The notes beneath the pieces were generated by a model that saw only the letters and a list, made by a program, of their open reading frames with translations, searched no databases and was not told where the DNA came from. 60,520 bases of DNA, taken from NCBI GenBank assembly GCA_021730945.1, contig JAKFYH010000036.1, positions 1-60,520 on the forward strand, written 5' to 3'. Made by a program: the position numbers and the translations under genes. This document shows, in pieces, positions 25,008 through 29,166 of the stretch (its first letter is position 1; each line of letters begins with the position of its first letter). The stretch is from Acidobacteriota bacterium. Lineage in GTDB: Bacteria; Acidobacteriota; Vicinamibacteria; Vicinamibacterales; UBA2999.

Positions 25008-26471
25008 TTAGTACGCCTTGGCGAACCAGGCGCTGACCTTCGCGGGCTTGCCGCACTTGATGCACGGCTGGCCCGGGGCCTGGTCATAGCCCACCGGGAT
25101 GTTGCGGATGGTCGCCTGCGTCTCCGCCTTGATGTCGGCCTCGCACGGCGCCTCTTCGCACCACGGCGCGATCACGAACCCGGGACGGCCCTCCATCGCG
25201 GCCTTGAAGCCGTCGTAGGTATCGGCGGTGGTCGTGTGCTCCTCGCGGAAGGCGCGGGCGCGGTCGAGCAGGTTCTTCTGGATGTCGGCCAGCAGCGCCG
25301 TGATGGCGCCGGCCAGGCCTGCCATCGGAATCGAGGCCTTCACGCGCGTGTCGCGGCGGGCGGCAAATACCGCCGACTTCTCAATGTCCTTGGGGCCAAT
25401 TTCGAGGCGTAATGGCACGCCGCGCATTTCGTACTCGGCAAACTTCCAGCCGGGTGTCTGGCTTTCATCGGCGTCCAGCTTCACGCGAATACCCGCTGCC
25501 CGTAATTGGGCGGCAATCTCCTCGCACTTGGGCAGCACCGTTTCCTTCCAGGTGCCGCGCGGAATCGGCACGATGACCACCTGGTAGGGCGCCACGGCGG
25601 GCGGCAGAATAAGGCCGCTGTCGTCGCCGTGCGTCATGATCACGCCGCCAATCAATCGCGTGGATACCCCCCACGACGTGGTCCACGCGTGCTGCAAGGT
25701 CTTGTCGCGGCCCTGAAACTGGATTTCGAAGGCCTTGGCGAAGTTCTGCCCCAGGTTGTGGGACGTGCCGGCCTGCAACGCACGGCCATCGCCCATCAGC
25801 GCTTCGATCGAGTAGGTCTTCGACGCGCCGGCGAACTTCTCACTGTCGCTCTTTTGGCCGTCAATGACCGGCATGGCCAGGACATTCTCGGCAAACTCCT
25901 TGTAGATGCCCAGAATCAGCATGGTCTCGGCCTGCGCCTCGTCCGCGGTTTCATGGGCGGTGTGGCCTTCCTGCCAGAGAAACTCGGTGGTGCGCAGGAA
26001 CGGACGGGTCACCTTCTCCCACCGGACCACGTTGGCCCACTGGTTGATGAGCACCGGCAGGTCGCGCCACGACTGGATCCACTTTTGGTACATCACGCCA
26101 AAGATGGTTTCCGAGGTCGGGCGCACGACCAGCTTCTCTTCCAGCTCCTCGCCGCCGCCGTGCGTGACGTAGGCCACCTGGGGCGCGAAGCCCTCGACGT
26201 GCTGGGCTTCCTTGAGCAGCAGGCTTTCGGGAATCAGCAGGGGGAAGTAGGCATTCACGTGGCCGGTGGCTTTGAAGCGCTGGTCGAGCTGTTGCTGGAT
26301 TAATTCCCAGATGGCATAGCCGTATGGCCGGATGACCATGAAGCCCTTGACCGGCGAGTAGTCAACCAGTTCGGCTTTGCGGACGACATCGAGATACCAC
26401 TTCGAGAAGTCGACCGATTGCTTGGTAATTTCCGTCACGAAGGCGTCGTCTTGATTAGGTTTCGCGGCCAT
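25008..26471 (-). CDS. proS: Prolyl-tRNA synthetase, archaeal/eukaryal type (ProS type 3)
   Basis: A 487-residue class II synthetase that charges tRNA-Pro. It lacks the large editing insertion of the E. coli-type enzyme and has the short eukaryal/archaeal form. Motif 2 lies around NVVRWEKVTRPFLRTTEFLWQ (split here over 125-150), and motif 3 in the TSWGVSTRLIGGVIMTHGDD region (about 275). The anticodon-binding domain follows, then a C-terminal zinc-binding domain with Cys pairs in CEEAPC and CIKC, ending in ...AKAY as type 3 enzymes do. Its start overlaps the nadB end by 17 bases. Confidence 0.96.
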   Translation of the reverse strand: MAAKPNQDDAFVTEITKQSVDFSKWYLDVVRKAELVDYSPVKGFMVIRPYGYAIWELIQQQLDQRFKATGHVNAYFPLLIPESLLLKEAQHVEGFAPQVAYVTHGGGEELEEKLVVRPTSETIFGVMYQKWIQSWRDLPVLINQWANVVRWEKVTRPFLRTTEFLWQEGHTAHETADEAQAETMLILGIYKEFAENVLAMPVIDGQKSDSEKFAGASKTYSIEALMGDGRALQAGTSHNLGQNFAKAFEIQFQGRDKTLQHAWTTSWGVSTRLIGGVIMTHGDDSGLILPPAVAPYQVVIVPIPRGTWKETVLPKCEEIAAQLRAAGIRVKLDADESQTPGWKFAEYEMRGVPLRLEIGPKDIEKSAVFAARRDTRVKASIPMAGLAGAITALLADIQKNLLDRARAFREEHTTTADTYDGFKAAMEGRPGFVIAPWCEEAPCEADIKAETQATIRNIPVGYDQAPGQPCIKCGKPAKVSAWFAKAY

Positions 26472-28056
26472 GGGCTCCTGGGATTCTTTCGCCGATATGA
26501 ACCTTAAAGTTTACGTCATCTCGAGCCGGGAAGTCGGTGCGGGCGTGGCCGCCGCGGGTTTCCTCGCGTCGCAAAGCCGCGCGCGCCATCAGCCGGCCCA
26601 CGGTGACGATCGAGGCCAGGCGCCAGTCGGCCGCCGACAGGCCGCCGGCGGCAATGCCAGGCGCCACAGCGGCGTACCACGCGTCCAACTGACTGATGGC
26701 CGTTTCGAGCGAGGCGCGTTCCCGCGACAAGCCAACCGAGTTCCACATCAGATCCCGTACGTCGATTTCGCTGGGGGCTCTGGCAGGTAGGGCGGGTCTG
26801 GCAGGCGGGGAAGAAGTGACCTCCTTACCAGCCCAACCAGCCCAACCAGCCCCACCAGCCCCACCAGCCGCACCAGCCTCACCGGGCCCGAGCATCACTT
26901 GCGCCGCGCGAGCGCCAAACACCAGGCCCTCGAGCAGGGAGTTGCTGGCCAACCGATTGGCGCCGTGGACGCCGGTGCAGGCGACCTCGCCCGCCGCCAG
27001 CAGTCCCGGCACGGTTGTCCGGCCCCACAAGTCGGTCTCGACGCCACCCATCACGTAGTGGGCAGCGGGACCGACCGGGACCGGATCGGTGGCCAGGTCG
27101 AAACCGGCGACGCGGCACGCGGCGGCGATGGTCGGAAAGCGGGCGCGGACCCACGTGGCATCGAGATGCCGCATGGTCAAGTAGACCGGCCGGCCGGTCC
27201 GCTGCTGCTCCGCCAGCATGGCGCGAGACACCAGATCGCGCGAGGCCAGCTCGCCGGCGGCCTCGTAGCGCGTCATGAATCGCTCGCCTGCCTCGTTGAC
27301 CAGGTACGCTCCCTCACCGCGCATTGCCTCCGATAGCAGGAAGCGTGGGGCGCCCGGAGCGCTGAGCGCCGTCGGGTGAAACTGGGTGAATTCGAGGTCC
27401 GTAACCTGGGCGCCGGCGTGCCACGCCAGGGTGACACCGTCGCCCGTGGCGATCGACGGGTTGGTGGTCTCGCGAAACACCTGGCCGGCGCCGCCGGTGG
27501 CCAGCAGGACGGCTGCGGCTTCGACCTCATGCGTGCCCTGGTCGTCCTCATAGGCCACGCCGTGGCAACGCCGGCCTCGAATCAGCAGCCGGGTGACCCG
27601 TGCATTCCGCTCGACGCGCACCCGCGCCTGCTCGGCCACCTGGCTCCACAGTGCCCGGCCGATCTCGCGGCCGGTCGCGTCGGCTGCGTGCATGACCCGG
27701 CGCACACCATGCGCGCCCTCGCGGCCAAACGACAGCTCGCCGGACGCGTCGCGATCGAAGCGTGCCCCGTTGGCGACGAGCTCACGCGTATAGCGCACGC
27801 CGTCTTCCACCAGCACGCGCACCGCCGCCTCCACGCACAGGCCATCGCCGGCGGCAAGGGTATCGGCGGCATGCAAGGCCGGCGAGTCACCGGGACCGAG
27901 CGCCGCGGCGATGCCCCCCTGGGCATAGCCGGTGTTGCTTTCATCGGGATCGGCCTTCGTCAGAATCAACACGCTGCCGGCTGCTGCAAGATCGGTGGCC
28001 GCCCGCAGGCCGGCGATACCACTGCCGATGACGAGGAAATCCGTGCGGCGTTGCAC
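26455..28056 (-). CDS. nadB: L-aspartate oxidase
   Basis: A 533-residue flavoenzyme that oxidises L-aspartate to iminoaspartate, the first step of NAD synthesis. The FAD-binding N terminus FLVIGSGIAGLRAA and the SNTGYAQGGIAAAL motif are clear. Substrate-site segments LEFTQFHPTAL, GVHGANRLASNSLLEGLVFG and the C-terminal helical domain (DLMWNSVGLSRER) are intact. Between the last two, residues about 391-430 are a low-complexity Gly/Ala/Trp then Pro/Ala linker encoded by a 9-base DNA repeat. The start is GTG 28056, facing aroB across 24 bases. nadA and nadC are not nearby. proS follows with a 17-base overlap. Confidence 0.95.
   Translation of the reverse strand: MQRRTDFLVIGSGIAGLRAATDLAAAGSVLILTKADPDESNTGYAQGGIAAALGPGDSPALHAADTLAAGDGLCVEAAVRVLVEDGVRYTRELVANGARFDRDASGELSFGREGAHGVRRVMHAADATGREIGRALWSQVAEQARVRVERNARVTRLLIRGRRCHGVAYEDDQGTHEVEAAAVLLATGGAGQVFRETTNPSIATGDGVTLAWHAGAQVTDLEFTQFHPTALSAPGAPRFLLSEAMRGEGAYLVNEAGERFMTRYEAAGELASRDLVSRAMLAEQQRTGRPVYLTMRHLDATWVRARFPTIAAACRVAGFDLATDPVPVGPAAHYVMGGVETDLWGRTTVPGLLAAGEVACTGVHGANRLASNSLLEGLVFGARAAQVMLGPGEAGAAGGAGGAGWAGWAGKEVTSSPPARPALPARAPSEIDVRDLMWNSVGLSRERASLETAISQLDAWYAAVAPGIAAGGLSAADWRLASIVTVGRLMARAALRREETRGGHARTDFPARDDVNFKVHIGERIPGAHGRET
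26776..26880. repeat. In-frame 9-base tandem array and related G-rich repeat inside nadB
   Basis: From about 26828 to 26880 the plus strand reads as about six copies of CCMACCAGC-type 9-mers, encoding GWA, GGA, GAA tripeptides on the minus strand. The adjoining 26776-26810 segment contains GGCAGGTAGGGCGGGTCTGG, close to the sequence at the 3' edge of the window. The reading frame of nadB stays open throughout. Confidence 0.85.
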
Positions 28057-28057
28057 T

Positions 28058-28076
28058 GAATGCTATCGTAGCATTC
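28058..28076. promoter_or_regulatory. Perfect palindrome filling the nadB-aroB divergent gap
   Basis: GAATGCTA (28058-28065), TCG, TAGCATTC (28069-28076) is an exact 8-bp inverted repeat. The whole gap between the two start codons is 24 bases, so it must hold both promoters. Each strand carries an extended -10-like string (TGCTATCGT on plus, TGCTACGAT on minus) placed about 8-11 bases before its start codon. Confidence 0.75.
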
Positions 28077-28080
28077 GTAC

Positions 28081-29166
28081 ATGCCACCCACCCGCATCGG
28101 GGTGACCGCCGCCGCGGGCGCCTATTCCGTCTTGATCGGCGAAGACACCATTGCCACGCTCGGTCACGAACTGGACGAGGCCCGCCTCGGCCCGCGCCGC
28201 ATAATCGTGTCGAGTCCGCGGGTCTGGGACCTCCACCGCGCCCGCTTCCGCAAGCTCGGTGCCGACCGCACGCCGGTGTTGGTCGACGACGGCGAGCGCA
28301 GCAAGACAATGGCGACGGTGGCACGCGTCCACGACGCGTTGGTGAAGGCGAAGGCCGACCGCTCGACGGTCGTGATCGCCGTGGGCGGCGGCGTCATTGG
28401 CGATCTGGTGGGCTTCGCCGCCGCCACCTACCTCCGCGGCATTCGCATCGTCCACGTGCCGACGACCCTACTGGCGCAGGTGGACAGCGCGATTGGCGGC
28501 AAGACCGGAGTAAACCATGCGCTCGGCAAGAACCTGATCGGCTCGTTTCACGCCCCGAGCCTGGTCGTGGCCGATCCGGTGGTGCTCGACACGCTGCCCC
28601 GTCGCGAGTTTCGCGCCGGCCTCTACGAAGTGATCAAGTACGGCGTGATCGCCGAACCCGGGCTGCTCGACCGCCTGCGCACGACGCTGCCGGCGATCTT
28701 CGCCCGCGAGCCCGGCGCGGTGGCGCCGCTGGTAGCCGACTCGTGCCGCATCAAGGCTCGCGTGGTGTCGGCCGACGAGCGCGAAGGCGGCCTGCGCCGC
28801 ATCCTCAACTTCGGCCACACCATGGGGCATGCGCTCGAGGCGGCGACCAAGTTCAAGCGCTTCCGTCACGGCGAAGCGGTGGGTTACGGCATGTTGGCGG
28901 CGTTGTCGCTAGGGGTGGCGCGTGGCGTCACGCCGCCGGCCCTCTACGAGGAGGTCCACGAATTGATCACGCACTTGGGGCCCTTGCCTCCGGTGTCGGA
29001 TATCTCCGCGCGTGAGGCGATGGCTGCGATTGGCCGCGACAAGAAGATGGTGGCCGGCACCCTGCACTTTGTGGGTGCCACCGGCCGCGGCGCCACGGCG
29101 ACGCTGACCGACGTGACGGCCACGGAGATGAGAAACGCCCTCAAGCGCCTCGGCCTGCGCCCCTGA
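28081..29166 (+). CDS. aroB: 3-dehydroquinate synthase
   Basis: A 361-residue enzyme of the shikimate pathway that converts DAHP to 3-dehydroquinate with NAD and a divalent metal. The dinucleotide site GGGVIGDLVGFAAATYLRG, the substrate and metal region KYGVI and the metal His residues in LNFGHTMGHALE and RHGEAVGYG are all present. Length is typical. ATG 28081 starts 24 bases from the nadB GTG, so the two genes share a very short divergent regulatory region. It ends 36 bases from the convergent response-regulator gene, with no obvious terminator between. Confidence 0.97.
   Translation: MPPTRIGVTAAAGAYSVLIGEDTIATLGHELDEARLGPRRIIVSSPRVWDLHRARFRKLGADRTPVLVDDGERSKTMATVARVHDALVKAKADRSTVVIAVGGGVIGDLVGFAAATYLRGIRIVHVPTTLLAQVDSAIGGKTGVNHALGKNLIGSFHAPSLVVADPVVLDTLPRREFRAGLYEVIKYGVIAEPGLLDRLRTTLPAIFAREPGAVAPLVADSCRIKARVVSADEREGGLRRILNFGHTMGHALEAATKFKRFRHGEAVGYGMLAALSLGVARGVTPPALYEEVHELITHLGPLPPVSDISAREAMAAIGRDKKMVAGTLHFVGATGRGATATLTDVTATEMRNALKRLGLRP

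Follow-up and report, generated by a model that had tools for sequence, protein, structure and literature searches.

This analysis revealed that the 24-base gap (28057-28080) between the divergent genes nadB and aroB is probably a minimal bidirectional promoter, from which both genes would be transcribed as near-leaderless mRNAs. The evidence comprises the geometry of the sequence, its conservation among relatives and its recurrence in the genome, and from these we infer the use of the sigma factor, the transcription starts, the two transcripts and their leaderless translation. The window, i.e. the whole stretch of DNA that was analysed (60,520 nucleotides), was re-read, and the sequence and coordinates of the gap and of its palindrome were found to be exactly as given in the preliminary description. 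The identities of nadB, aroB and proS were assigned with NCBIfam models. The genes and elements are as follows.

25008-26471, minus strand: proS, proline--tRNA ligase, downstream of nadB (TIGR00408)
26455-28056, minus strand: nadB, L-aspartate oxidase, GTG start at 28056-28054 (TIGR00551, above cut-off)
28057-28058, minus strand: predicted nadB transcription start, leader of 1-2 nt
28058-28076, no strand: perfect 8-3-8 palindrome, GAATGCTA-TCG-TAGCATTC, read in the sequence
28061-28069, plus strand: predicted extended -10 element for aroB, TGC-TATCGT (hexamer 28064-28069)
28064-28070, no strand: shared symmetrical heptamer, TATCGTA
28065-28073, minus strand: predicted extended -10 element for nadB, TGC-TACGAT (hexamer 28065-28070)
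28069-28074, plus strand: alternative -10-like string, TAGCAT, exactly 6 nt before the aroB ATG
28076-28077, plus strand: predicted aroB transcription start, leader of 4-5 nt
28081-29166, plus strand: aroB, 3-dehydroquinate synthase, ATG start at 28081-28083 (TIGR01357, above cut-off)

Within nadB, a CCAGCC-rich short tandem repeat was observed at positions 26820-26880 of the window. Parts of a query covering this repeat matched 13 further places in the genome, several of them at contig ends, and this suggests a repeat dispersed through the genome at which the assembly breaks.

With regard to the geometry of the gap, the heptamer TATCGTA comprises two putative -10 hexamers, TATCGT towards aroB and TACGAT towards nadB, which lie on opposite strands, overlap by five bases, share reciprocal -11A/-7T pairs and each follow an extended -10 TG. 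The housekeeping sigma factor would bind in either orientation via these pairs, and RNA would start about 7 nt to either side of the element, about 18 bp apart. The predicted starts were placed from this geometry; a distance of 7 nt beyond each hexamer would put them at 28076 and 28058, exactly 18 bp apart. The products would be the two mRNAs with the short leaders given above, both translated without a Shine-Dalgarno sequence, and polymerase binding in the two orientations would be mutually exclusive. No Shine-Dalgarno-like string was found in the window before the start of either gene. No -35-like hexamer was found at spacings of 15-19 on either strand, the best having 2 of 6 matches to TTGACA, which is fitting for an extended -10 promoter. 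As the predicted starts lie at the ends of the palindrome, no more than its last base would be transcribed, and the palindrome therefore cannot be a hairpin of either predicted transcript.

The -10-like strings had been described as lying 8-11 bases before the start codons; the exact values are 11 bases from the end of TATCGT to the ATG and 8 bases from the end of TACGAT to the GTG. nadB displays the sequence features of a leaderless gene, with the first base of TACGAT at -14 and no AGGAG-like string. For aroB, the conserved TATCGT begins at -17. The alternative TAGCAT, at -12, would make aroB strictly leaderless if it served as the -10 element, but it is missing in three of the compared loci (L104, L004 and L002).

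The comparison with relatives was based on aroB loci retrieved by protein search, including at least 80 from named records, many of them outside Acidobacteriota. Together with the family genomes, 39 of 43 of which gave an aroB match, and nine further regions, this resulted in 94 distinct aroB loci among the matches listed. In 45 of these, or 46 loci with the window, nadB and aroB are divergent, and the pair is common among acidobacterial relatives. Within 260 nt upstream of aroB, TGnTATnnT was present in 55 of 57 loci (the window and 56 loci with an aroB identity of at least 53%), a count which, like the other locus counts, is not one of independent cases because the loci are related by descent. 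The two loci without this anchor word, L018 and L019, were left out of the anchored counts (n=55). TGnTATnnT is followed by the seventh base of the heptamer, A7, in all 39 loci that have a divergent start at a distance of 3-16 nt versus 13 of the 16 others (Fisher p=0.02). As A7 is needed only for the reverse hexamer, its retention counts towards two-way use. Nevertheless, most loci that have no divergent gene close by also keep A7, and the conservation of the heptamer could therefore stem largely from the aroB promoter.

For the spacing of the start codons, the closest start in frame was taken, a choice biased towards short distances. Counted in this way, 33 of 46 loci have the nadB start, always GTG, at 6-9 nt from the reverse hexamer, and seven more, three of which have TTG, have it at 10-24 nt. 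The heptamer is out of reach of nadB in six of the 46 (L002, L035, L018, L032, L052 and L041). For aroB, 29 of 55 loci have the start 8-12 nt away from the forward hexamer and the others have it 4 to 98 nt away; within the genus, the ATG is 10-11 nt from its own hexamer in eight of nine genomes, the exception being L109. The earlier proposal that both genes are read leaderless or near-leaderless from one symmetrical element is thus supported by the comparison for the core and for the GTG spacing of nadB in many divergent relatives, and the near-leaderless spacing to the aroB ATG is supported as well, being kept in most genomes of the genus, with the layout recurring at other divergent pairs. 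The bases of the reverse TG element were also considered as evidence of two-way use and were dropped, linked and unlinked loci being alike: its C was found in 36 of 39 linked and 14 of 16 unlinked loci and its A in 28 of 39 and 10 of 16, respectively (33 and 26 in a set of 36 loci).

The main rival to a bidirectional promoter is a one-way promoter, in which TGCTATCGT serves aroB alone and nadB relies on a promoter within aroB, the nadB GTG abutting the element by happenstance. We regard this as unlikely, although several observations agree with it. TGnTATnnT stays at aroB where no nadB is close, including in relatives devoid of nadB. A nadB match (E<=1e-60) is absent from 10 of the 43 family genomes, four of which are also without aroB; this cut-off hides cut genes, as G022 was counted as being without nadB, yet the edge of its contig holds part of the gene. 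The aroB-bearing genomes without such a match are G001, G002, G004, G018 and G038 (the same contigs as L009, L003, L005, L027 and L012), and all five have kept the forward word at aroB. The A of the reverse TG element is present in one of these five (L027) and lost in L003, L005, L009 and L012, a post hoc comparison of tiny numbers. In addition, TATCCT is a better -10 hexamer than its complement TAGGAT, and the AGGA contained in the TAGGAT of many relatives stands 7-10 nt before the GTG, where it could serve as a Shine-Dalgarno sequence for nadB.

In contrast, TACGAT or TAGAAT, neither of which contains AGGA, stands at the same 8-nt spacing in the window and in several relatives, and A7 is invariant in the linked loci. 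In L002, where the gap is widened to 95 bp, each gene has a separate -10-like word, nadB as TGATACGAT-6 nt-GTG and aroB as TGCTATTCT-10 nt-ATG; the former speaks against a one-way aroB promoter, as does the recurrence of the layout at unrelated gene pairs. Other loci show altered arrangements. L019 has the asymmetric part of the core inverted (TAGGATA on the plus strand), with the nadB TTG 10 nt away. In relatives that lost nadB, proS is the divergent neighbour of aroB, and in L027 its start lies 8 nt from the reverse hexamer. At about 2617-2980 of L005 (the same contig as G004:C7), the first codons of nadB appear to stand beside the element, with only a C-terminal match beyond it, and this nadB seems to be internally deleted. 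L030 exhibits an inverted repeat, GTAATTGTTTACCG / CGGTAAACAATTAC, between the promoter core and aroB.

The preliminary description had also considered the palindrome to be a possible operator, through which a regulator would control NAD and aromatic synthesis together. Palindrome arms of eight bases suit a dimeric regulator. The perfect 8-3-8 symmetry agrees with an operator, and no positive evidence was found beyond it; we consider this explanation very improbable. The palindrome is the sole match in the window at up to three mismatches (0.03 expected), and the genome search that had been proposed gave no second copy at this threshold in the 4.73-Mb genome, whereas 4+4 were obtained with a reversed control pattern; plasmids, searched with the gap plus flanking sequence, gave no match. 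Neither NiaR (PF02829) nor NrtR (PF21906), the only two regulators sought, had a domain match in the genome at E<=0.001, the controls being positive. Furthermore, loci without nadB keep the forward core at aroB.

The outer arms of the palindrome were compared in 36 loci with a start no more than 12 nt from the heptamer, a selection that by itself fixes T1, A2, T6 and A7. All six outer base pairs were found in the window only, and in none of the 35 other loci. An arm matched its own partner at 3.19 of 6 positions on average versus 3.01 with arms from different loci (permutation p=0.07, and p=0.14 without the window). The conservation asked for in the preliminary description therefore holds for the nadB-aroB pair and for the core TGnTATnnTA and fails for the perfect palindrome, which is not supported as the functional unit; its loss in relatives with the same pair, named in advance as an outcome that would speak against the proposal, was observed for the palindrome and not for the core. 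Perfect 8-3-8 palindromes of any sequence were counted 77 times in a 1.26-Mb genome sample, 22 times in the 118 kb of intergenic DNA of this sample and four times within the window. By simple arithmetic, the chance of one per 24-base gap is about 0.1%, so that the palindrome is above chance for one named gap and unremarkable over many scanned gaps. The perfect outer arms thus appear incidental, and the perfect palindrome is probably mostly an accident of this genome. That the whole gap is a chance spacer, with both genes expressed from elsewhere, agrees with the abundance of such palindromes but hardly with TGnTATnnT being kept upstream of aroB while the flanks vary, and it is just as improbable as an operator.

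The layout of a bidirectional promoter with near-leaderless starts was also sought elsewhere in the genome. The sample of 1.26 Mb of 4.73 Mb contained 1038 genes by a simple codon-usage gene caller; it is not random, the 20-kb stretches C3 and C29 having been chosen for TGnTATnCTA matches and the others being contig starts. TAnnnT was found at -15 to -12 of candidate starts 185 times versus 66 expected from -60 to -20, with a peak at -12/-13, and the excess of 119 corresponds to about 11% of the called genes. No such peak was found in the same sample for ATnnnA, TTnnnA, AAnnnT or ATnnnT. Shine-Dalgarno-like words are also enriched, at -13 to -9 of candidate starts, and since both word classes are enriched, both the leaderless and the Shine-Dalgarno modes exist in this genome.

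TAnnnTA was found 3-12 nt from both starts in five of 149 divergent pairs, the gaps of all five being 19-24 bp, whereas each of the control words ATnnnAT, AAnnnTT and TTnnnAA was found in none of the 149, even though all three are commoner AT palindromes between genes (154-170 versus 72 for TAnnnTA). In the congener G007, the shared TAnnnTA was found in four of 68 divergent pairs versus 0, 1 and 1 for the controls, and in G010 in none of 24, likewise for each control word. A looser test, which required for each start its own TAnnnT at 6-9 nt in gaps of 8-60 bp, gave 6 versus 3, 2 and 0 for the controls in this genome, 8 versus 2, 2 and 1 in G007, and 0 in G010. An A follows TAnnnT at leaderless distance in 9 of 22 cases where a divergent gene lies no more than 60 bp away versus 27 of 156 beside tandem or farther divergent genes (Fisher p=0.02), a comparison in which 7 matches without a called neighbour were left out and both members of a pair could be counted. 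The pairs other than nadB-aroB in the G000 sample are listed below; the gaps of all five measure 19-32 bp.

C2, 47631-47650: divergent pair with a shared heptamer
C5, 23159-23180: divergent pair with a shared heptamer
C18, 32244-32268: divergent pair with a shared heptamer
C26, 23171-23192: divergent pair with a shared heptamer
C22, 20631-20663: divergent pair with -10-like words near both starts

By their translations, read by eye, the other four pairs with a shared heptamer look like a transporter and a small protein, two membrane proteins, purA and hutH, and a methyltransferase-like protein and a ketosynthase. Two more shared sites were noticed by eye, at about 17.88 kb of L082 and about 14.35 kb of L086; they fail the shared-heptamer test and were not counted. 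The longer word TGnTATnCTA was tried as a genome-wide promoter word and rejected, with 2 occurrences in this genome versus 7 for the reversed control. TGYTATCCTA occurs 0-4 times per genome across the 43 family genomes, and these counts suggest an individual promoter at aroB rather than a high-copy motif.

It is tentatively proposed that, in the genus and perhaps in the family, a symmetrical -10 heptamer with a start codon about 6-12 nt to each side may form a standing unit of leaderless or near-leaderless divergent expression. There may be about 20 such units per genome (scaled from the 5 found in 1.26 Mb of 4.73 Mb), each pair sharing one polymerase landing site, and they may survive the exchange of a partner, such as proS for nadB, and the flipping of the stronger side. 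If the nadB-aroB gap is indeed a bidirectional promoter, it represents a natural minimal two-way promoter of 24 bp with both leaders, in which geometry locks together the points where transcription and translation of two biosynthetic genes begin, and nadB and aroB must compete for polymerase. The gap also offers a simple test of the combination of bidirectional promoters and leaderless translation in this phylum, and the case warns against taking such palindromes for operators.

Among known systems, promoters that work in both directions from a symmetrical -10 element were reportedly described by Warman in 2021. No description of a divergent nadB-aroB pair was found among the accessible papers. 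Literature on bidirectional or overlapping promoters combined with leaderless genes gave no case of two leaderless genes sharing one -10 element in the accessible text of the sources covered. For Acidobacteria, the search gave only one sequence-based study of leaderless starts. In the work of Zheng, as far as its accessible text goes, leaderless genes have TANNNT about 12 bp upstream, and the leaderless average for three Acidobacteria is 13.3% (Zheng 2011, PMC3160421). The TAnnnT peak of this genome is alike, and its excess of about 11% is close to that average, whereas the aroB hexamer of the window, at -17, points to a short leader rather than none. The word "divergent" is absent from the text of that paper.

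Divergent genes with overlapping promoters, as predicted for the gap, are found in the EcoRV restriction-modification system (PMC5333194) and in a Mesoplasma florum gene pair (PMC7745072). The accessible portions of these descriptions make no mention of a single shared -10 element or of both mRNAs being leaderless, and EcoRV, unlike the gap, is controlled by a C protein. A TATA-based bidirectional promoter of Pyrococcus furiosus also yields both transcripts from one symmetrical element but, according to the available text, differs from the gap in its TATA/TBP machinery, in starts 49 bp apart and in an antisense product (PMC6640164).

The closest likeness is to the symmetrical -10 promoters themselves. 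According to the accessible parts of two reports, a near-symmetric -10 element lets polymerase bind either way, and 18 bp is the commonest distance between the starts, since -7T and -11A fall on each other reciprocally at this spacing (PMC12825309, PMC10268837); no discussion of leader length was found in these parts. The gap shares with these promoters one -10 element on both strands, the reciprocal -7T/-11A pairs and a predicted spacing of 18 bp. It differs from those described in these parts in that two metabolic genes would both yield mRNAs with hardly any leader, owing to which the whole intergenic region would be promoter core. The mechanism is thus probably of an already known kind, to which the nadB-aroB gap adds a case.
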